Of a stretch of DNA of 64,000 nucleotides, positions 5,303 through 25,065 are shown piece by piece (position 1 is the stretch's first letter; the number at the start of each line of letters is the position of its first letter). A program made the position numbers and the translations under genes. Source of the stretch: Rosistilla carotiformis (GTDB lineage: Bacteria; Planctomycetota; Planctomycetia; Pirellulales; Pirellulaceae). The DNA lies in contig NZ_CP036348.1 of assembly GCF_007753095.1 (NCBI RefSeq), forward strand, positions 4,464,001-4,528,000. The letters run 5' to 3'. The notes below the pieces were generated by a model, which made no database searches, had not been told where the DNA came from, and was given only the letters and a program-made list of their open reading frames with translations.

Positions 5303-6405
5303 GCCACCGAGGTCACCGAGTCCACAGAGGAAATCGATCAACCACGACAACCCTCTGTGTCCTTGGTGAACTCGGTGGCAAAAAACAACTGCTCCCGCCA
5401 CCCCATGCGGCAATCGGTGACGAGGGCTGGCGTCTAGGCTTCAGCCGAACCGCGCCTCGGCAAACTAGAACGTAAACAAGCGAAACCTTAGCCACCGAGG
5501 TCACTGAGTCCACAGAGGAAATCCATCAACCACCAAACCCTCTGTGTCCTTGGTGAACTCGGTGGCAAAAAACAACTGCTCCCGCCACCCCATGCAGCAA
5601 TCGGTGACGAGAGCTGGCGTCTAGGCTTCAGCCGATCCGCGCCTCGGAAAACTAGAACGCAATCAAGCGAAACCATAGCCACCGAGGTCACTGAGTCCAC
5701 AGAGGAAATCCATCAACCACCAAACCCTCTGTGTCCTTGGTGAACTCGGTGGCAAAAAGAACAACTGCCCCCGGCACCCCATGCGGCAATCGGGGACGAG
5801 CGCTGGCGTCGAGGCTTCAGCCGATCCGCGCTTCAGCGAACTAGAACGCAAACAAGCGAAACCTTAGCCACCGAGGTCACTGAGTCCACAGAGGAAATCC
5901 ATCAACCGCGACAACCCTCTGTGTCCTCGGTGAACTCGGTGGCAACCCCCCCCCCCGCCACCCCATGCGGCAATCGGTGACGTGAGCTGGCGTCTAGGCT
6001 TCAGCGGATCCGCGCCTCGGCGAACTAGAACGTAAACAAGCGAAACCTTAGCCACCGAGGTCACTGAGTCCACAGAGGAAATTCATCAACCACCACAACC
6101 CTCTGTGTCCTCGGTGAACTCGGTGGCAAAAAGAACAACTGCCCCCGCCACCCCATGCAGCAATCGGTGACGAGAGCTGGCGTCTAGGCTTCAGCCGATC
6201 CGCGCTTCAGCGAACTAGAACGCAAACAAGCGAAACCTTAGCCACCGAGGTCACTGAGTCCACAGAGGAAATCCATCAACCGCAACAAACCTCTGTGTCC
6301 TCGGTGAACTCGGTGGCAAAAAAACGACTGCCCCCGCACCACCTCATGTGGCAATCGGGGACGTGAGCTGGCGTCTATACTTCAGCCGAACCGCACATCG
6401 GTGGG
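5303..6405. repeat. Six tandem copies of a ~188-bp hairpin repeat
   Basis: Units begin with GCCACCGAGG at 5303, 5491, 5678, 5867, 6051 and 6241 (spacings 188, 187, 189, 184, 190). Each unit carries a ~28-nt arm (GCCACCGAGGTCACTGAGTC...) and, about 15 nt later, its imperfect reverse complement ending CTCGGTGGC. A third part contains AGCTGGCGTCTAGGCTTC. All six reading frames are broken or differ between units, so this is non-coding. The same arm recurs at 8974, 13558, 15159 and 15738. Confidence 0.9.
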
Positions 6406-13557: not shown

Positions 13558-14100
13558 GCCACCGAGTCCACCGAGTCCACCGAGGAAATCGATCAACCAC
13601 CTCAACCCTCTGTGGACTCGGTGAACTCTGTGGCAAAACCAACAACCGCCCTCCGGATTCCCTCGGAACCACATCCGGCAGTCGGTGACTTAAGCTGGCG
13701 TCTAGGCTTCAGCCGATCCGCGCACTGGCCAACATGCTCGCAAACCGCACAATGGCCAACCAGCACGCAAACCGCGCACTGGCGTACCAGTACGCAATCC
13801 GCACAATGGCGAAGCCATGGCAGTATAGAGCCTGGGACGCAAGTCCCAGGTGACAGCACCGACGATACAAACCAAAGTCGCAAAGCGACGACATAATTAG
13901 TCCAGTCGTCGCGTCCAAGTCCCGGCAGGGATCACATCACGCACCCCGTGGCGTGAACCATGGGACCATCCACGCCCAAGCCCATCAAAAGCCACGGCCG
14001 GGCGACAGCAATGTACCTCACATGTCCCGCCCGCGAACCACGCGAATGCCATCATCCGCTCACAAGTACGTTGTACAAACCTGCGAAACGAATCCGCATC
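13558..14100. repeat. Composite dispersed repeat, full copy with 27-bp internal tandem
   Basis: It starts with the GCCACCGAG arm and its partner CTCGGTGAACTCTGTGGC. Next come AGCTGGCGTCTAGGCTTC and three-plus units of a 27-bp tandem (13728-13810; a unit ends CGCACAATG or CGCACTG), then the hairpin TGGGAC-GCAA-GTCCCA at 13833-13848. It finishes with the usual tail. Frames across it are shared with the other copies but are broken at different places, so it is treated as non-coding. Confidence 0.8.
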
Positions 14101-14215: not shown

Positions 14216-14557
14216 ATGGCACTCGAAATCCCTAGCGAATATGAAGGCGTTCTTAACGACGCTGTCGCAAGCGGTGCGTTTGCGACGCCCCAGGATGCGT
14301 TGCGTCATGCACTGGCGACTTTTGCAAAAGAGCGTGCTAGTGAAGCGCGGCAGCCGTCGACAGAGACACCGCCTCGCCTAAAGCGCCAGACGTCCAAGGC
14401 AACTGATATTGACGAATTAGCGAGGAAGCAAGGCGTGCCGCCTTTGAAGGACTTCCGACAACTCGAAGCGAGCTTTTGGCCTGCCGATGAATCGGTCGAC
14501 GACTTCATTCAGGCAATTCGAGAAGGGCACCAAGACGACGGAGCACGGACGCGATAA
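14216..14557 (+). CDS. Antitoxin of a VapBC-like pair
   Basis: 113 aa, with GGAG 8 nt before the ATG. The N-terminal 45 residues (ALEIPSEYEGVLNDAVASG, then FATPQDALRHALATF) look like a ribbon-helix-helix/ParD-like DNA-binding and dimerisation segment. The middle is polar and probably disordered. The C-terminus (FRQLEASFWPADESVDDFI) is the kind of segment that wraps a PIN toxin. Its stop TAA shares one base with the toxin ATG, indicating translational coupling. By analogy it neutralises the toxin and represses the operon. Confidence 0.75.
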   Translation: MALEIPSEYEGVLNDAVASGAFATPQDALRHALATFAKERASEARQPSTETPPRLKRQTSKATDIDELARKQGVPPLKDFRQLEASFWPADESVDDFIQAIREGHQDDGARTR

Positions 14558-14970
14558 TGTCAGCTCTTGTTGTCGACACCGACGTCGTTTCTTTAGGCTT
14601 CCGTCAGTCCGACAACTTTGTCCATCACTACGGACCGGCTCTGGTAGGCTCCCGACTGATCGTCTCGTTTATGACGATCGCTGAGCTGGCTTTTGGTGCC
14701 CTGAATCGCCAGTGGGGACCAAGGAAATGTCAGCAGTTATCTGAGTACATGAATCGGCACTATGTTCGCTTCGACCAAACCGAGCCAATGTGCCAGATCT
14801 GGGCCGAATTGTGCTGGGAGGCGAAAACTCGCGGGCGAGTGCTGCGAACTGCCGACGGCTGGGTTGCTGCAACAGCCGTCTATTTGAATCTGCCCCTTGT
14901 GACCCACAATGCTCGGGACTTCAATTATCTACCTCAACTGCAACTGATTACCTTCCCGTCGACTGGATAA
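14557..14970 (+). CDS. vapC: PIN-domain toxin (VapC-like ribonuclease)
   Basis: 137 aa, the usual VapC length. PIN-domain acidic residues are in place: VVDTDVVS near the N-terminus (Asp7 and Asp9), IAELAFGA (Glu), and RTADGWVAATAVYLNLPLVTHNARDF with the C-terminal Asp pair. Such enzymes cleave tRNA or rRNA when freed from their antitoxin. The start overlaps the antitoxin stop (TAATG). The pair is flanked on both sides by composite repeats. Confidence 0.85.
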   Translation: MSALVVDTDVVSLGFRQSDNFVHHYGPALVGSRLIVSFMTIAELAFGALNRQWGPRKCQQLSEYMNRHYVRFDQTEPMCQIWAELCWEAKTRGRVLRTADGWVAATAVYLNLPLVTHNARDFNYLPQLQLITFPSTG

Positions 14971-15158: not shown

Positions 15159-15700
15159 GCCACCGAGGTCACTGAGTCCACAGAGGAAATCGATCAACCA
15201 CCTCAACCCTCTGTGGACTCGGTGAACTCTGTGGCAAAACCAACAACCGCCCTCCGGATTCCCTCGGCACCCCATCCGGCAGTCGGTGTCCCGAGCTGGC
15301 GTCTAGGCTTCAGCCGATCCGCACACTGGCCATTCAGTACGCCTAACCGCACATCGGCGAACCAGCACACAATCCGCACAACGGAAACCCAGCACGCACA
15401 ATGGCGAAGCCATGGCAGCATAGAGCCTGGGACGCAAGTCCCAGGTGACAGCACCGACGATACAAACCAAAGTCGCAAAGCGACGACATAACTAGTCCAG
15501 TCGTCGCGTCCAAGTCCAGTCAGGGATCACAGCACGCACCCCGTGGCGTGAACCATGGGACCATCCACGCCCAAGCCCATCAAAAGCCACGGCCGGGCGA
15601 CAGCAATGTACCTCGGCCGTCCTGCCCGCGAATCAGGCAAATCACGCGAATGCCATCACCCACTCGCAAGCTGCGTTATACAAACAAGCGAAGCGAAGCC
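15159..15700. repeat. Composite dispersed repeat, full copy
   Basis: It has the same module order as the copy at 13558, with the hairpin TGGGAC-GCAA-GTCCCA at 15428-15443. The next copy begins at 15738, so this is locally a tandem arrangement with a period of about 580 bp. Confidence 0.8.
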
Positions 15701-15826: not shown

Positions 15827-16108
15827 ATGAGCAAGAAACGACGACGACATTCACCCGAACAGATCATCAAGAAGCTGCGTGACGCGGATGCCATGCTTGC
15901 CGCCGACAAGAGCGTGGGTGAGGTTCTCCAAGCACTGGAAGTTAGCGAGGCCACGCTGAGCCGCTGGCGGAGCCAGTATGGCGGCATGAAGAGCGAAGAG
16001 GCCAAGCGTCTTAGGGCACTTGAGGAGGAGAACAACCGACTCAAGAAGATTGTGGCCGACCAAGCTTTGGATATTTCGATGCTGAAGGAAATCACCAAGG
16101 GAAACTGA
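15827..16108 (+). CDS. IS3-family transposase OrfA
   Basis: 93 aa. It has a helix-turn-helix of the transposase_8 type (SPEQIIKKLRDADAML, then EVLQALEVSEATLSRWRSQYGGM) followed by a leucine-zipper-like coiled coil (RALEEENNRLKKIVADQALDISMLKE). It binds the IS ends and, when joined to OrfB, forms the active transposase. It ends GGAAACTGA. The OrfB frame is already open here, so a ribosomal frameshift near the end of OrfA could give the fusion. Confidence 0.93.
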   Translation: MSKKRRRHSPEQIIKKLRDADAMLAADKSVGEVLQALEVSEATLSRWRSQYGGMKSEEAKRLRALEEENNRLKKIVADQALDISMLKEITKGN

Positions 16109-16161
16109 CGACCCCTCGATCGCGACGCGCGGCAGTAGCAGAGCTTCAACAGAAGTTCGCT

Positions 16162-16998
16162 GTGTCGCAACGACGTGCCTGCCGCGTGCTCGACCAACCG
16201 CGATCGAGCCAGCGATTTGAGGGGAAACCCAAAGACGAAGACGAGCGACTGACGAAGCGAATTCTTCACTTTGTTCGCGAGCGTCCTCGCTGGGGGTATC
16301 GACGTATCTGCCAACTTCTTCGCCGCGACGGTGAGACTATTAACAGGAAAAAAATGTATCGGCTTTGGAGAGCATCGGGGCTGAAGGTGCCACAAAAGCG
16401 TCGCAAAAAGCGTGCTACTGGCGTCCGAGGCAATGCATGCGACGTTCAAGCGGCAGGTTTTGTTCACGATGTTTGGAGCTGGGATTTCGTGCAATCGTCG
16501 ACACTTGATGGACGAACGATTCGCTTCTTGAACATCGTCGATGAGTACACGCGGCAATGCCTGACGATCAAGGTCGGCCGCAGTATCACGAGCGAAGATG
16601 CGATCGACACGCTGGCTGAGCTGTTTGCAATGCACGGCGTTCCGAAACGACTTCGTTGCGATAACGGCCCCGAGTTCATCTCGACAGCGATCAAGCAATG
16701 GCTGGCAAAGATTGGCGTTGAGATCCTTTACATCGAACCTGGCTCGCCATGGCAGAACGGTGTCTGCGAGAGTTTCAACAGCCGGCTTCGTGACGAGTAT
16801 CTGCATCAAACGGATTTGATCAATGAAGACGACACACGGATGAAAGCACGAGCTTGGCGGGAGGACTTCAACACCCAGCGCCCGCACAGTTCGCTTGGCT
16901 ATCTAACCCCATCAGAGTTCGCGCATCGCAGTGCTGCTTCCGTTCGGCCTACGGCCTCACTCCAGCAGCACTGCGAATCACCCACCCCTGTTTCCTAA
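16162..16998 (+). CDS. IS3-family transposase OrfB (DDE integrase domain)
   Basis: 278 aa from GTG at 16162; the same frame extends upstream past the OrfA stop, so the native product is probably an OrfA-OrfB frameshift fusion. An HTH_21 segment (RRACRVLDQPRSSQRF, WGYRRICQLLRRDG) precedes the rve catalytic core. DDE residues are visible: WSWDFV (first Asp), RCDNGPEFIS (second Asp) and QNGVCESFNSRLRDEYL (Glu). It ends with the QRPHSSLGYLTPSEFA block typical of the family. Confidence 0.94.
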   Translation: MSQRRACRVLDQPRSSQRFEGKPKDEDERLTKRILHFVRERPRWGYRRICQLLRRDGETINRKKMYRLWRASGLKVPQKRRKKRATGVRGNACDVQAAGFVHDVWSWDFVQSSTLDGRTIRFLNIVDEYTRQCLTIKVGRSITSEDAIDTLAELFAMHGVPKRLRCDNGPEFISTAIKQWLAKIGVEILYIEPGSPWQNGVCESFNSRLRDEYLHQTDLINEDDTRMKARAWREDFNTQRPHSSLGYLTPSEFAHRSAASVRPTASLQQHCESPTPVS

Positions 16999-17576
16999 CC
17001 CAATCTTTCATAACGCCTGGTGCAGAAAACTGGGGCATCCCAAGTCCACAGAGGAAATCGATCAACCACCTCAACCCTCTGTGGACTCGATGAACTCTGT
17101 GGCAAAACCAACAACCGCCCTCCGGATTCCCTCGGCACCCCATCCGGCAGTCGGTGACCTGAGCTGGCGTCGAGGCTTCAGCCGATCCGCACACAGGACA
17201 TTCAGTACGCCGATCCGCACACTGGCCAACCAGCACGCAATCCGCACAACGGCAACCCCGCGCGCAATGGCGTAGCCATGGCATGATAGAGCCTGGGACG
17301 CAAGTCCCAGGTGACAGCATCGACGATACAAACCAAAGTCGCAAAGCGACGACAGAATCAGTCCAGCCGTTGTGCCCAAGTCCCGGCAGGGATGACAGCG
17401 CGTACGCCGTGGCGTGAGTCCGCCCCAAGGCCATCAATAGCTCCGGCGAGGCGGCACCAATGTACCTCACACGTCCTGCCCGCGAATCACGCAAATCACG
17501 CGAATGCCATCACCCGCTCGCAAGCTGAGTTATACATACCACCGAAACGAGTCCGCCCCAATTTTTCCAAGTCTCC

Positions 17577-17613
17577 AAAAAAAAGGGCACGAACCGTCGA
17601 AACGGAACGTGCC
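17577..17613 (-). terminator. Intrinsic terminator ending the candidate ncRNA
   Basis: Read on the minus strand: GGCACG, TT, CCGT, loop TTCG, ACGG, TT, CGTGCC, then C and eight T. This is a 10-bp stem with a small symmetric internal loop and a stable TTCG tetraloop, followed by a uridine tract. It is a strong rho-independent terminator for transcription leftwards, out of the reverse transcriptase operon. Confidence 0.85.
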
Positions 17614-17705
17614 ACCGAGCGGAAAGTGTGTGTGCTCCGTAAACGGAGCGGGGTACGGCACTTGCGGTGTTTTCCCCCGTCGCTACAAAAAAAACGCACA
17701 TAATA
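17577..17705 (-). ncRNA. Candidate DRT3-type non-coding RNA with CACACACAC tract
   Basis: No convincing protein frame exists between the drt3b stop (17790) and the terminator at 17577. On the minus strand the region contains, in order: a stem CGGGG/CCCCG (17675-17679 with 17649-17653) enclosing a CAC/GTG mini-stem; a perfect GCTCCG-TTTA-CGGAGC hairpin (17634-17649); the tract CACACACAC (17634-17626), apart from its first base in the unpaired strip after that hairpin; and the terminator hairpin. The 5' end is uncertain: a weak TTGCGG (17739-17734) / TACATA (17717-17712) promoter could start it near 17705, or it could be processed from the operon mRNA. An AC-repeat template is what is reported, as I recall it, for the ncRNA used by Drt3a. 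Confidence 0.7.
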
Positions 17706-17719
17706 CAATACTATGTACG
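17687..17719 (-). terminator. Hairpin plus T8 after drt3b
   Basis: On the minus strand CGTACATA pairs with TATGTGCG (8 bp, one G-T wobble) around a 9-nt loop and is followed directly by eight T (17694-17687). This looks like the terminator of the two-gene mRNA, 70 nt past the drt3b stop. It may alternatively be a structural 5' element of the ncRNA or an attenuator setting RNA versus mRNA levels. Confidence 0.55.
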
Positions 17720-17789
17720 CCTTAGCTGAGAAGCCGCAAACAAAGTTACAACAAGTGTAGCTTTGCATAGGAGTTCCTGCCTCGGATGC

Positions 17790-19664
17790 TTAAGCGTAGC
17801 CAATCGGCGTCTGTTTTTCAAGAAGGTAAGTCAGTGTCGACGTGCTACTATCCCAGTCAAAAAACATAGACGAACCTTTGACTGATTTGAAAACTTGGTT
17901 GCGATTTAACTTCATCCCGGAAAATCGGCTGACTGTATCGATCATGATCTTTCGTTCCTCCACAGAAAGAAATGGGCAGCAAGCGAGGTCCGACGCAAGC
18001 ATCAACGCATCTGCTCGCTTGCAGTTGTCCGGCATGCGATCCAAAAAAACTCTAATTTTCGACATGATTGCATTCCTGATCGCGCTGTATTGAGCACGAT
18101 CTGAGGCAACGAAAAGCAGCCCAAGAACGGTGAAATAGTCAACCTCATCATCCAGCATGCATTTTGTTGCCGATAGCCATATCGAATGTAGTAAGTCCGG
18201 ATGCGTCTCGTGCAACAAGTCACGAGATGCAAGTGGTATAAGCACAACAAGCAGCGGAAGCACAGGCACCAACTCACGTGAAATCGCGTTCGCACCAATT
18301 TTAGTGATTTGATTAACCATCTCCTCGTCAAGTCGATGCACCCGTGACACTCCGTCGTCATTACGACTTAACTTCTCTCGTCCGATCTCATAAAAGAGCG
18401 AGAATCGCACAGCCGTCTGGTATCTAAAGTCAAGTTCAAGAAGCCGGCTCGCAAATAAGACGATTCCACTTTCAACGTAGAGCTGGGATAAATTCGGCCC
18501 CGATCGCTCAAACTTCTTCTGCAAAATTGTCAATGCGTAGCTAACGCAACTTTCGTAAGTGCAATTTGATTCCGAAACAATACGTTTAAACTCTTTAAGC
18601 ATTCGAAGCCCAATACCGCCATGCGGATGCGACTTCCGTTCTTTGTACGACCTGACTTGACTCTCATAACGATCCATCGAATCGCTGATTTTGTGCTTGA
18701 GGGCGCTCGCGTCAGACATGAATGGTGACTCTACCTGAGTCGTCTTAGACTCGTTGATTAGTAGTTTTACACGTCGCAGTTCTTCTCGAATTGCCGCCTC
18801 GACTTGATCGGCAACGACTTCGTCATTAAAGAAAATGAAGATATCGTCAACATATCGACGCACCTCATAGTGGGTTCCTGGCACAAAAGTTTTAAGCAAC
18901 CTTACTTCTGCTGCTGAATCCACTGTTTGCAGCAGCAGTTCTGCAAACACTCTCGAAAGCTCCGGGCCAACGAGTATGCCGTGAGTCTCTCCATGGTTCA
19001 TGCTGCTCATCAGTCTGTCGAACTGGGCGTCAAAAGTATGCCGTGCGTTTCGACTATCTTGTCTCTTGGCATTTGACTTACCACGAATCGCCCAGGAAAT
19101 TGCGTGCGTGTAAATATTGTCGAAGCACGCCTGAACATCTAGCATGCGTTGGAAACGAAACCGCGACTCAAGCGATCCAAAGTCCTCAGAATCATAAAAC
19201 GAATAAAGCAATCGAAACGGGCGATACGCAAAGTAGCGAGTTGGGTTTATCGATTGCTCTTTATCGCTATCGCTTCCTGGCCTAAGCGGAGTGTTTATCC
19301 TAAACCGTTTTGCGATGGCATATGGTGCACGCAGTGACCAGCCACTCTTACGACAGTTTACAATTACTTGGGTTGCAAATGTCTCAAGAAATTTCGCAAC
19401 GGTCCGATAGTGGAACGGATGCATCACGTGGATTTGGCGTGGCTTCTTTCTGTCACGCACTAATTTGTAAACATATGGGATCGTTTCAAGAGGCTTATTG
19501 GCTTGACCTGGACAAACAGCCTTATCTAATTCGTGCTCCGCATTATCGCGGATGCGTTCGTAAATGGTGCGCAACGAGAATCGCGGTGGCACTTCATGCG
19601 GCAATATCTCGCTCAATAGCACTCTGTGGTGATCATTGGCGTCAATTCTCAAATAGTTTCGCAT
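17790..19664 (-). CDS. drt3b: Defence-associated reverse transcriptase, long subunit (Drt3b/UG8-like)
   Basis: About 624 aa from the ATG at 19662-19664, two bases after the drt3a stop; an ATG at 19691 would add nine residues and overlap drt3a. RT core: motif A LDVQACFDNIYTHAISWA (Asp176), motif B THGILVGPELSRVFAE (about 227-242), and catalytic YVDD (271-274) followed by the palm/thumb region with LINESKTT. About 300 further residues, mainly helical, form a C-terminal extension with no known motif. Length, the extension and pairing with a shorter RT fit the UG8 member of DRT type 3. As I recall recent work, this subunit makes the poly(AC) strand without a nucleic-acid template. The gene is visibly A+T-richer than its flanks, suggesting horizontal acquisition. 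Confidence 0.82.
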   Translation of the reverse strand: MRNYLRIDANDHHRVLLSEILPHEVPPRFSLRTIYERIRDNAEHELDKAVCPGQANKPLETIPYVYKLVRDRKKPRQIHVMHPFHYRTVAKFLETFATQVIVNCRKSGWSLRAPYAIAKRFRINTPLRPGSDSDKEQSINPTRYFAYRPFRLLYSFYDSEDFGSLESRFRFQRMLDVQACFDNIYTHAISWAIRGKSNAKRQDSRNARHTFDAQFDRLMSSMNHGETHGILVGPELSRVFAELLLQTVDSAAEVRLLKTFVPGTHYEVRRYVDDIFIFFNDEVVADQVEAAIREELRRVKLLINESKTTQVESPFMSDASALKHKISDSMDRYESQVRSYKERKSHPHGGIGLRMLKEFKRIVSESNCTYESCVSYALTILQKKFERSGPNLSQLYVESGIVLFASRLLELDFRYQTAVRFSLFYEIGREKLSRNDDGVSRVHRLDEEMVNQITKIGANAISRELVPVLPLLVVLIPLASRDLLHETHPDLLHSIWLSATKCMLDDEVDYFTVLGLLFVASDRAQYSAIRNAIMSKIRVFLDRMPDNCKRADALMLASDLACCPFLSVEERKIMIDTVSRFSGMKLNRNQVFKSVKGSSMFFDWDSSTSTLTYLLEKQTPIGYA

Positions 19665-19666
19665 AC

Positions 19667-20854
19667 CTAAAACACATCCCGTACCAGCCAAAGCCGTTTC
19701 CCGCTAAAACGGTGTCGAATGTTTAGTTTATAGCTCGCCGAAAAAGAAATCCGTCGGAGCAGTCGTAACTGTTCGGTTTTAAGCGAGGCATCGGTACCAT
19801 CTGAGTTTATCGTCCGAATCCATTGATGTAGGTAACCATCCAAGCTGCTAAGTCGTTTTAAGTTAGTTAATTCAGGATGAGAAGACCGGAGGCCAATTTG
19901 AACGCGACGACGTGTGAAGTTGCTGTGAGTCGTAGTCCCGCCGGTAAGGTAGCGAAGGCGATCACGAAGCAGTAGAAAATCTTTGCTTTCCTGGAATGCT
20001 AGAAACACACGGTCCAAGCGTTGGCGGATTTGAAGTTCCTTTCGCTCTGATAATCCGATCTCAATAGCGGTTCGTTTTTTGGCTTGTACTTTTTTCGTCA
20101 GCATAAACGAATAGCCCAGGTATTCAAATTCTGTCCTGTTCGCAATTCCGTCGTTCCAGTGACATTGCGACGTCTTTCCTCGGTTCAACGATAGTCCGGT
20201 AGGTAGTGCGCAATCCACTTTTTCCAATATATGTTCGCCTGATCGAGCAGCTGTGACAATGAGGATGTCATCAACAAATCGGCTATAGTAAACAACTCCA
20301 GGATGACAGATAACTTGGCGATCGAAATCTGCAAGAAAATGTTCAGCTAAGTCACTGCTTATGGCCAAACCATAATGTAACCGTTGCAAGGGATCGTCGT
20401 TGCATCTCAATAATGTCTTGCACCACTTGAATTCTACAGCTTTTAACTTTTTTCTGACTGAAGGCAAGTTCAGCGATTGTTCAGCAGGCATAGAACCAAA
20501 ACACTTAGCAATATCCGTCCTGACAATAAAGTGAGGAACATCAGATTCCAGCACCGATTTTAACTGGCGACAGATTACTTGCCGAGATGGGGGGTGATGT
20601 ATATCGCCGCTTCTTAGCACGCGACAACAATGCCGCAAAAAAAGTGCGTCTGCATACGACGTCACGCGAAGCGTTGATTTACCTCGATTGATAGTTGCCT
20701 CGACAGGCTGCGGCACATACGAGCGATCCGCAAACCTTGCGGCGATCTGAATTGCAGCCTCTTTTGGGCCAGGATGTCTCGCATCAATAAAGCGGAGGCA
20801 GTCATCTGCGCGAACTAAGGTTGTTATGTACTTAGGATCGCTTAGTCGTGTCAT
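19667..20854 (-). CDS. drt3a: Defence-associated reverse transcriptase, short subunit (Drt3a/UG3-like)
   Basis: 395 aa, the first gene of the operon. RT motifs: FIVRTDIAKCFGSM (motif A, Asp114), LHYGLAISSDLAEHFLADFD (motif B, about 160-178), and RFVDDILIV with the catalytic DD at 195-196, where Phe replaces the usual Tyr of YxDD. GLSLNRGKT follows (motif D region), and a basic C-terminal thumb ends the protein. There is no maturase or endonuclease domain, so this is neither a group II intron nor a classical retron. Short size and the following long RT match the UG3 partner of DRT3, an anti-phage system. Drt3a is reported to copy an ACAC-type ncRNA template into poly(GT). The downstream gene starts two bases after its stop, implying translational coupling. 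Confidence 0.82.
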   Translation of the reverse strand: MTRLSDPKYITTLVRADDCLRFIDARHPGPKEAAIQIAARFADRSYVPQPVEATINRGKSTLRVTSYADALFLRHCCRVLRSGDIHHPPSRQVICRQLKSVLESDVPHFIVRTDIAKCFGSMPAEQSLNLPSVRKKLKAVEFKWCKTLLRCNDDPLQRLHYGLAISSDLAEHFLADFDRQVICHPGVVYYSRFVDDILIVTAARSGEHILEKVDCALPTGLSLNRGKTSQCHWNDGIANRTEFEYLGYSFMLTKKVQAKKRTAIEIGLSERKELQIRQRLDRVFLAFQESKDFLLLRDRLRYLTGGTTTHSNFTRRRVQIGLRSSHPELTNLKRLSSLDGYLHQWIRTINSDGTDASLKTEQLRLLRRISFSASYKLNIRHRFSGKRLWLVRDVF

Positions 20855-21397: not shown

Positions 21398-22837
21398 CTA
21401 CGAACTCGCTCCTAGCACAAGTTCGCTTGTTCCCTTGGGCAAGTCGAAACAGGCGACGAGGTTTTGATCGTTGGCGATCCATGTTCCTGCGTCCAATGTC
21501 GATCTGTCGGACGCCTGGCGCAGTAGTGTGTGATCGTTTCCCTGCTGGAGACTCACCGGTCCCGCGGCGCCGTCGATTTGCAGCGTGTAGCGCTGTGCAG
21601 CAAAGGGGGCCGTGAGCGTTAGGCGATTCCCCTCGCGGCGGATCTCGGTCAGTTGTTTCGCGGCCCAATAACGGGCGATTTCGCTGAGCTTCATCCAGAT
21701 CGTGTCGTCGGCGAATCGCGACGCCAACGATTGAACCACTCGTTTGAAAGAATTGAATCCTTCTTCACTGCCATTGCTGTACATCCCCGGCCAATGACAG
21801 ATCATGACCGCCGGTTGCCGACGCTGGATCAGTTCGACCATTCGGCCGCTGGTCGCCGCGGCGTTGCAATAGCGGTCGGGGTCGGAGAGCGAATCGCCTT
21901 GCCAACCGCCAAACCAATCCCCCGTTCCCGCCGGAACGTTGACGGTTAACCGGACGTCGTCGGTCCCCACGCCGCGCAAATGTTCGAGCTTCGGCTCCGT
22001 ACTCTCGTCCCCCGAGATGACGTATTTGAAATAGTGTGGCAGATCGACGCCGTAGACGTCGCGAACCGCCTGGTCGACCGCGATCGGCAATTCGGATTTC
22101 ATCGAATTACCAAAGCCACCGGGTGTGGTGATTCCTTCGCAGGGGAGATCACAGTTCTTCACGATGCGAAGTGCATAAGCGAGATAGGCGGCCAATTCGT
22201 CGACGCTCTTCTTTTCCTGAGGATACGAATTCTCCATCGTTGCCGGGCTGATCTGCTGCATCGGTCGGCCGGTCTTCAGATCGATCACCCGCGTGTGCGT
22301 GATCATCTCGGGATGAATGTCCCAGTTGGGGAGCATCAATTCGCGGACAAGTTTTAAGCTGGACTGCAAATCGGCTCGCGACCAACCGGGCAATTCCCGA
22401 TCGAGCCAGCCGACGCAGGCGGGATTGGGGACGATGCTGTATTTGCCTTTGACGCCCTGGTCGGCGCACCATTCTCCAAACTGGCGGACAAAGCTATCGG
22501 GGATCTCGCGCGGCCATGATCTCCACGGCTTTTGATACTCGGCGCGGTTTGGCATCGCGGTGGCGAACTGCGGAGTGCAAAAGTGTCCCATGTTCACCAA
22601 GCAGGTCGAATCATCGATGATGAACGACAGCGGCACGCGATCTCGCGGCATCAGCACCTGGACGCCTGCCGGCCGGGTCGGCAGCGGAGCAGGCGCGGTG
22701 AGCTCAGGCGTCTCGGCCAAACCTAAACGGGGCAGCCCCATACCAGCCACTGCCGTCGCGGCACCCCAAGCCGACCCGCGAAGAAACGCTCGCCGGTCCT
22801 GGATCCTCAATGTACGGTGCTGGTTCACGTCGGACAC
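21398..22837 (-). CDS. Tat-exported protein, possibly deacetylase-like
   Basis: 479 aa. The N-terminus has a twin-arginine signal (DRRAFLRGSAWGAATAVAGM), so the protein is exported folded. The mature part begins PLSFIIDDSTCLVNMGHF, with paired Asp reminiscent of polysaccharide-deacetylase metal sites. HPEMITHTRVID and MICHWPGMYSNG could complete a metal-binding barrel. The last ~100 residues look like a beta-sandwich. Similar uncharacterised proteins occur in Planctomycetes; the substrate is unknown. No operon partner is clear. Confidence 0.65.
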   Translation of the reverse strand: MSDVNQHRTLRIQDRRAFLRGSAWGAATAVAGMGLPRLGLAETPELTAPAPLPTRPAGVQVLMPRDRVPLSFIIDDSTCLVNMGHFCTPQFATAMPNRAEYQKPWRSWPREIPDSFVRQFGEWCADQGVKGKYSIVPNPACVGWLDRELPGWSRADLQSSLKLVRELMLPNWDIHPEMITHTRVIDLKTGRPMQQISPATMENSYPQEKKSVDELAAYLAYALRIVKNCDLPCEGITTPGGFGNSMKSELPIAVDQAVRDVYGVDLPHYFKYVISGDESTEPKLEHLRGVGTDDVRLTVNVPAGTGDWFGGWQGDSLSDPDRYCNAAATSGRMVELIQRRQPAVMICHWPGMYSNGSEEGFNSFKRVVQSLASRFADDTIWMKLSEIARYWAAKQLTEIRREGNRLTLTAPFAAQRYTLQIDGAAGPVSLQQGNDHTLLRQASDRSTLDAGTWIANDQNLVACFDLPKGTSELVLGASS

Positions 22838-24411: not shown

Positions 24412-25065
24412 CTGATACCCAGCCCTGCAGGCTGGGCTATGCAAATTGCTGGACCTTCGGCCCGCGCCAGGCCTGTGAGGAATGTTCCTGTCCCTTTCGC
24501 CGTTGCCCATCGCATTCATCCGAGTCCGGGCCGCAGGCTCGGCCATTTGCATAGCCCAGGCCATCGGCCTGGGTTCTAGTGGCGATGATTGACATGGTTG
24601 GGCTGTAGGCCCGGTCGATTGTCACCACCTACCCCGGGGCGTTGCCCCTTCGCCCATTGTGAAATGAAACCGGGCGTCGTCGGCTGATACCCAGCCCTGC
24701 AGGCTGAGCTATGCAAATTACTGGACCTTCGGCCCGCGCCAGGCTTGTGAGGAACGTGCCTGTCCCTTTCGCCGTTGCCCATCGCATTCATCCGAGTCCG
24801 GGCCGCAGGCTCGACCATTTGCATAGCCCAGGCCATCGGCCTGGGTTCTAGCGGCGATGATTGACATGGTTGGGCTGTAGGCCCGGTCGATTGTCACCAC
24901 CTACCCCGGGGCGTTGCCCCTTCGCCCATTGTGAAATGAAACCGGGCGCCGTCGGCTGATACCCAGCCCTGCAGGCTGGGCTATGCAAATTGCTGGACCT
25001 TCGGCCCGCGCCAGGCCTGTGAGGAATGTTCCTGTCCCTTTCGCCGTTGTCTGCGACTTGCGTAG
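24412..25065. repeat. 272-bp tandem repeat, about 2.4 copies
   Basis: Units start with CTGATACCCAGCCCTGCAGG at 24412, 24684 and 24956, exactly 272 bp apart. They are nearly identical (a few substitutions, for example GGCTGGGCT versus GGCTGAGCT). Each unit is a string of small hairpins: CCTGCAGG, ACCTTCGGCCCG, GGCCATCGGCC, GGGCTGTAGGCCCG and GGGGCGTTGCCCC. Frames are repeat translations, not genes. The near-identity points to recent duplication. Confidence 0.88.

Follow-up and report, generated by a model that had tools for sequence, protein, structure and literature searches.

Within a stretch of 64,000 nucleotides (nt) of the chromosome of the planctomycete Rosistilla carotiformis (contig NZ_CP036348.1, positions 4,464,001 to 4,528,000; hereafter, the window), two adjoining reverse transcriptase (RT) genes raise the question of whether the DRT3 system known from Escherichia coli is present in this host with all the parts on which its mechanism depends. 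An initial annotation had described the locus as a DRT3 pair (UG3 plus UG8) of adjoining RTs of 395 and ~624 amino acids (aa), and both open reading frames (ORFs) were found on the minus strand as described. The first, drt3a (19667-20854), encodes a 395-aa UG3, or Class 2, RT with an FVDD active site. It is followed by drt3b (17790-19664), which encodes a 624-aa UG8, or Class 1, RT with a YVDD active site and an alpha-helical C-terminal half, and both of the catalytic Asp pairs reported earlier are thus present. A TTG codon at 19691 is an alternative start of drt3b and would give a 633-aa protein (17790-19691); the sister species of the same genus (locus L078) has the same two candidate starts. 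We prefer the ATG at 19664 because it lies directly after the drt3a stop (TAG-GT-ATG). In Neorhodopirellula pilleata (locus L003), drt3b starts with an ATG and shares 8 nt with the end of drt3a. The two genes account for both RVT_1 matches found in the host genome (7,437,004 bases, one contig; E up to 0.001), and the locus is A+T-rich, as had been noted, with 46-47% G+C vs about 54-61% in the flanking kilobases. As argued below, this is very probably a complete chromosomal DRT3 anti-phage system with an E. coli-type mechanism.

Profile searches assigned both proteins by wide margins. With the NCBIfam models, which have curated equivalog cut-offs, the 395-aa protein scored 223.7 bits against Drt3a (NF041747, cut-off 200), and the 624/633-aa protein scored 420.8 bits against Drt3b (NF041748, cut-off 350). 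The corresponding PADLOC models gave 253.8 bits (1e-75; next other family, 64.3 bits) and 468.1 bits (1.3e-140; next other family, 150.4 bits). In PDB sequence searches, the sole significant match of Drt3a was 9z6y_A, named Drt3a (E 1e-21), while Drt3b matched 26cz_A (4.6e-65), named RNA-directed DNA polymerase, and 9z6y_H (2.8e-60), named Drt3b. The solved chains of 9z6y/9z6z carry the names Drt3a and Drt3b, and the numbering of 26cz fits E. coli Drt3b as given in the available part of PMC13174585. AlphaFold2 models of Drt3a and Drt3b (mean predicted local distance difference test, pLDDT, 87.6 and 81.1) showed the Foldseek likenesses expected for Class 2 and Class 1 enzymes, respectively: the former best matched DRT9, and also group II-like RTs, and the latter matched DRT6, UG15, DRT4 and AbiK. 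Since DRT3 entries were not among the 50 best matches listed per model, the structures support just Class 2-like and Class 1-like folds.

These searches also bear on the idea that the pair consists of unrelated RTs from some other class (group II intron, retron, diversity-generating retroelement or other UG) that lie next to each other by chance. The upstream protein does have background matches to the group_II_RT_mat and retron St85 models, but at 44.4 and 23.8 bits they are far below the cut-offs of 300 and 235; for Drt3b, the group II intron and retron models gave 40.5 and 13.9 bits. In agreement with the earlier statement that no maturase or endonuclease domain is present, Pfam returned RVT_1 alone for each protein at E up to 10. 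Moreover, in the relatives described below, too, the two genes follow each other in this order and an AC tract lies downstream. We hold this explanation, to which we assign a vanishingly small probability, to be already refuted by the profile scores and by the AC tract in relatives. As judged from sequence, the pair are DRT3 RTs and were correctly named at the outset: placement among group II introns, retrons or unrelated clades had been proposed as the outcome that would overturn the name, and the Drt3a and Drt3b models scored best instead.

The residues on which the E. coli mechanism depends can be traced in the window proteins. According to the accessible sections of PMC13174585, E. coli Drt3a copies a 5'-ACACAC-3' template in a noncoding RNA into poly(dTdG), whereas Drt3b needs no nucleic acid template for its poly(dCdA), which is primed by Y666; E22 and R241 act as gates, with R71 assisting. 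The complex has a 6:6:6 stoichiometry (PMC13314766), and about 97% of UG3 RTs adjoin a UG8 (PMC8934634), both as stated in the parts of these papers available to us. We mapped the residues onto window Drt3b (624-aa numbering) through the 26cz alignment, using a tag offset of 108 and counting by hand. In this mapping, E22 corresponds to E24, R71 to R76, R241 to R238 and Y666 to Y623, the penultimate residue; D182 and F187 correspond to D176 and F181, and YVDD occupies positions 271-274. Across 30 full-length DRT3 loci (window included), the E22 position is E in 26 and D in four, the R71 position is R in 29 and N in one, and the R241 position is R in all 30, all of which also have a Tyr among the last five Drt3b residues. 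In Drt3a, FVDD was found in the window and in N. pilleata among nine aligned sequences, the other seven having YVDD or YADD; the Drt3a of the sister species likewise has FVDD.

The third component of the system is predicted downstream of drt3b, on the same strand. A DRT3 noncoding RNA region would extend over 17577-17789, beginning just past the drt3b stop and ending with the U8 tract that follows a terminator-like hairpin. The left edge originally proposed for the locus, 17577, coincides exactly with the end of this U8 tract, but the RNA region with the AC template inside that span had been overlooked. The expected Drt3a template, CACACACAC (17626-17634), lies inside the block GCACACACACUUUCC, which is invariant in the four planctomycete loci (the window, L003, L078 and L079), while much of the surrounding sequence has diverged; the AC tract is 9 nt long in all four. 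A search for another template downstream in the window, limited to AC or GT runs, returned one (AC)4 tract, and no such candidate was kept.

Several predicted stems surround the template. On its 3' side, a hairpin (17586-17613) followed by U8 (17584-17577) forms an intrinsic-terminator-like RNA end; most of its pairs are kept via two-sided changes between the two planctomycete lineages, and one out of 10 pairs is broken in one sequence. Directly 5' of the template lies the short hairpin GCUCCG-UUUA-CGGAGC (17634-17649), and a hairpin is present here in all four planctomycete sequences. C17634 can close this preceding hairpin too, in which case ACACACAC stays open. Finally, a 5' arm, CCGAG...GGAA (17770-17785; element GGAACUCC), is common to the four planctomycete RNAs and could pair with UUUCC-G-CUCGG just 3' of the template, an arrangement predicted to enclose the RNA. 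Its inner helix, GGAA (just past the drt3b stop) with UUCC, is possible in all four, with probabilities of 0.42-0.59 in the window and 0.60-1.0 in the others, and its outer arm shows a two-sided change in two out of four pairs. The fold of 17560-17789 has a z-score of -3.37, with none of 200 shuffles equally stable, and the template is predicted to be open (mean P(unpaired) 0.87-0.90 vs 0.35-0.45 elsewhere in the RNA; the window itself has 0.87 vs 0.37). RNAalifold gave 30 pairs for the four planctomycete RNAs, 17 with a two-sided change and three broken in one sequence. Within the RNA region, a terminator scan also retrieved a hairpin of 15 pairs followed by a U tract (17691-17723); this hairpin is smaller in the sister species, was not seen in L003 or L079, and may be an mRNA end or an RNA stem.

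We then assessed how widely the AC template is shared. From a set of 80 locus sequences, 75 were scanned after skipping duplicates (L001, L002, L005, L043 and L044), and 34 of these contained a Drt3b-like ORF that reached 550 aa and 200 bits or more. Five loci (L040, L060, L063, L064 and L067) were excluded because their Drt3b frame is split or short, and L071-L077, together with the RT matches of a phylum-wide genome sample, scored at most 131 bits with our own Drt3b profile. In 30 out of these 34 loci, whose Drt3b-like ORF is full-length, an (AC)3 or longer tract occurred within 400 nt downstream. The 30-locus set used throughout, which forms 25 clusters at 70% identity, is what remains when four loci at 216-278 bits are removed, by a threshold chosen once these four were known to be without the AC tract. 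All 30 carry ACACAC within 300 nt downstream, compared with one for the antisense GTGTGT; 200 rounds of dinucleotide shuffling yielded 1.93 loci on average and at most seven, and ACACAC was present in eight out of 182 control windows inside drt3b. The four loci lacking the AC tract (L004, L068-L070) score lowest of all against Drt3b and stay under the NCBIfam cut-off for this protein.

These four are weakly matching two-RT loci (Drt3b 240-315 bits). The two RT genes of L004 are divergent, and L068 has GTGTGTGT between its genes. A downstream search for units of 2-4 bases repeated at least three times revealed no clear template in any of the four. With 211.4 bits, the partner RT of L004 exceeds the Drt3a cut-off of 200, so this locus may be a genuine relative of DRT3 that lacks an AC tract downstream. 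All four possibly belong to a sister system of DRT3 with another template or another template position.

Three planctomycete relatives of the locus were retrieved: L078 (genome G662), which belongs to the same genus as the host and is 88.8% identical in DNA over the locus, L079 (genome G714) and L003 of N. pilleata. The literature searched, whose coverage was partial and gives no proof of absence, contained no description of a planctomycete DRT3. This accords with the initial annotation, which knew of none, although the public genome of N. pilleata does carry one. The Drt3b cut-off was passed in one out of 392 genomes sampled across the phylum (35 had some match at E up to 0.001, those other than the window's own reaching at most 122.7 bits) and in three out of 397 genomes of the host's class, all from one family. 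The two samples overlap partly and neither takes in all genomes; on these counts, DRT3 seems to be rare in planctomycetes. Matches were found in five out of 50,697 phage records, none covering 80% of the query, and in 192 out of 72,556 plasmids, three of them with 80% coverage of the query. Among 34 Drt3b proteins placed in a tree, those of the four planctomycetes grouped together (100/100) on a branch of 1.66 changes per column, with a warning from the program that long branches may be misplaced and that the composition of the planctomycete sequences is unusual. In the collections searched, close relatives came only from planctomycetes. Kinship to the N. pilleata sequence points to the family Pirellulaceae for the host. 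Within this group, which also shares the RNA block, Drt3b of N. pilleata is 51% identical to that of the window. Relative to the sister species, the ratio of nonsynonymous to synonymous substitution rates is about 0.18 for drt3a (0.062/0.341) and 0.13 for drt3b (0.050/0.386), similar to that of a neighbouring gene (0.039/0.263). Judged by these rates, both RT genes are under purifying selection, and together with the profile scores this sets the two frames well apart from chance ORFs.

The long planctomycete branch, together with the longer template CACACACAC in all four planctomycete loci, could be taken to mean that this DRT3 makes a product other than (dTdG)/(dCdA). A longer AC tract would still template TG repeats, four-unit AC tracts are also found in L036, L037 and L049, and the E, R, R and Tyr residues are the same as in E. 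coli. We therefore regard a different product as very unlikely.

Overall, the locus resembles E. coli DRT3 in the order drt3a-drt3b-RNA, the close spacing of the genes, the active sites, the equivalents of E22, R71, R241 and Y666 and an AC template that is predicted to lie unpaired with stems on either side. It differs from it in the FVDD of Drt3a, the 9-nt AC tract, the divergent RNA sequence and a host without a RecC match, and the window proteins share 19-27% identity with the aligned non-planctomycete DRT3 members. DRT9 and DRT10 likewise perform RNA-templated repeat synthesis with a Class 2 RT and a noncoding RNA template, according to the available text of PMC13174585, but, unlike DRT3, lack a Class 1 partner RT. 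The Class 1 enzymes DRT4, DRT6 and AbiK, which consist of an RT and an alpha-helical domain, are resembled by the window Drt3b model; in the portions of the literature covered, no alternating-dinucleotide gate is described for them. We know of no DRT4, DRT6 or AbiK system with a paired Class 2 RT that uses an RNA template.

By analogy, Drt3a would copy CACACACAC of the downstream RNA, slipping back repeatedly, to yield poly(dTdG). Oligomeric Drt3b would use its penultimate residue, Y623, as the primer and extend poly(dCdA) without a nucleic acid template, with E24 gating dATP and R238 switching for dCTP. The most likely product would be double-stranded DNA (dsDNA) formed by annealing of the RNA-derived poly(dTdG) with the protein-derived poly(dCdA). 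In the uninfected cell, a host end-processing nuclease would remove this dsDNA, and a phage that blocks the nuclease would let it build up until growth stops (abortive infection). We infer the biochemistry, the phage trigger and the growth arrest from the work on E. coli, where cells tolerate DRT3 only if RecBCD is present and abortive infection is triggered by phage Gam (PMC13174585, accessible part).

The nuclease of this host appears to be of another type. A RecC model had no match in the host or its three relatives; in 14 control genomes it matched E. coli alone. The best host match to a recB model reached 136.8 bits vs a cut-off of 696 and corresponds to a 904-aa UvrD-type helicase, whose gene overlaps that of a 953-aa protein with a C-terminal PDDEXK_1 nuclease. 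We take this pair to be an AddAB-like arrangement. Because no RecC was found, the AddAB-like pair is the most likely remover of the dsDNA, although AddAB as the brake is pure inference. Annotated DRT3 copies occur on plasmids of alphaproteobacteria and Bacteroides, and the RecC model had no match in the control genomes of Caulobacter vibrioides and Bacteroides ihuae, which are relatives of these bacteria, so that a restraint of DRT3 by something other than RecBCD would not be a planctomycete peculiarity.

A complete, E. coli-like DRT3 has to be weighed against several observations that count against it. The brake in this host, where the RecC model had no match, is probably not identical to the RecBCD brake of E. 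coli. Window Drt3a has FVDD instead of YVDD, and its identity to aligned non-planctomycete members is just 19-26%. The last five residues of the Drt3b model, including the priming Tyr, have a pLDDT below 50, making the model neutral on priming geometry. As for the RNA, the four planctomycete sequences are two close pairs, so that in essence a single divergence underlies their two-sided changes; the predicted RNA has an internal terminator-like hairpin with a U tract; and a promoter scan gave one site vs 4.5 expected, that is, nothing above chance. In the window, the enclosing stem has only a moderate probability (0.42-0.59). When tested by an automatic best-helix search, it was matched by at most five out of 100 shuffles in just 10 out of 30 loci, and by 82 out of 100 in the window.

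Some of these points would fit a genuine DRT3 by descent that is now inactive or non-defensive in its host: the E. coli regulatory partner appears to be missing, as no RecC match occurs in the genome, Drt3a has FVDD, and a terminator-like hairpin lies inside the RNA region. Against such decay, both genes are intact and under purifying selection, the catalytic, template and priming residues are kept, and the predicted RNA pairs are maintained via two-sided changes. An inactive locus is thus unlikely, though less so than a different product, and a working DRT3 remains our preferred reading.

The site of the locus was compared among genomes of the genus. The neighbour on the drt3a side (21398-22837) has no Pfam match and is present in the three genus genomes searched, with 92-93% DNA identity. 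In the sister genome G662, DRT3 likewise lies beside a homologue of this neighbour, and L078 is syntenic with the window on the drt3a side. In genome G594, which belongs to another species of the genus, a 1063-aa metallophosphatase-STAND protein (L090:7766-10957), matching PADLOC PDC-S60 (6.5e-63), stands between the homologue of the neighbour and the same repeat family as in the window. We take the PDC-S60 label to denote a phage defence candidate. That one site holds two unrelated defence-type genes, an observation from three genomes, is the strongest genomic argument available here for a defensive role of DRT3, and the site may be described as one of interchangeable defence genes. Beyond the site itself, blastn detected no similarity of the window flanks to L003 or L079, and a PADLOC search for a defence island among eight neighbouring ORFs gave nothing convincing. 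A DrmC match of a 93-aa ORF (15827-16105) was discarded as a model artefact because Pfam calls this ORF a transposase helix-turn-helix.

The repeat- and transposon-rich setting reported for the locus was borne out by an IS3-type transposase (15827-16998, Pfam) and long direct repeats that adjoin it. A local repeat of ~470 nt occurs at 13574-14047, 15175-15690 and 17043-17508, and also at about 8.6-9.4 kb, each copy containing a match on the minus strand to the Acido-Lenti-1 RNA (RF01687). These repeats separate a PIN toxin pair, the IS3 transposase and DRT3, and matches longer than 200 nt are confined to this part of the genome. Six short copies of the first ~150 nt of the repeat, about 187 nt apart, lie at 5319-6397. 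The toxin-antitoxin-like gene pair (14216-14970) ends in a PIN-domain protein, and its first gene has no Pfam match. On the other side, 24412-25049 contains 272-nt tandem direct repeats with internal inverted repeats.

The locus is, therefore, a clear further DRT3 of an already known kind. It brings another phylum into the range of a protein-templated DNA polymerase system that has only just been explained, and the components required for function are there. The template, gate and primer features, kept at 19-27% identity, provide independent support for the published mechanism. The locus also points to RecC-less hosts as the place to ask what restrains the dsDNA product. We tentatively propose that DRT3 may be tied not to RecBCD but to whichever dsDNA end-processing nuclease its host has, here through an AddAB-type check released by phage inhibitors; if this is true, DRT3 would be a general guard of end-processing nucleases.

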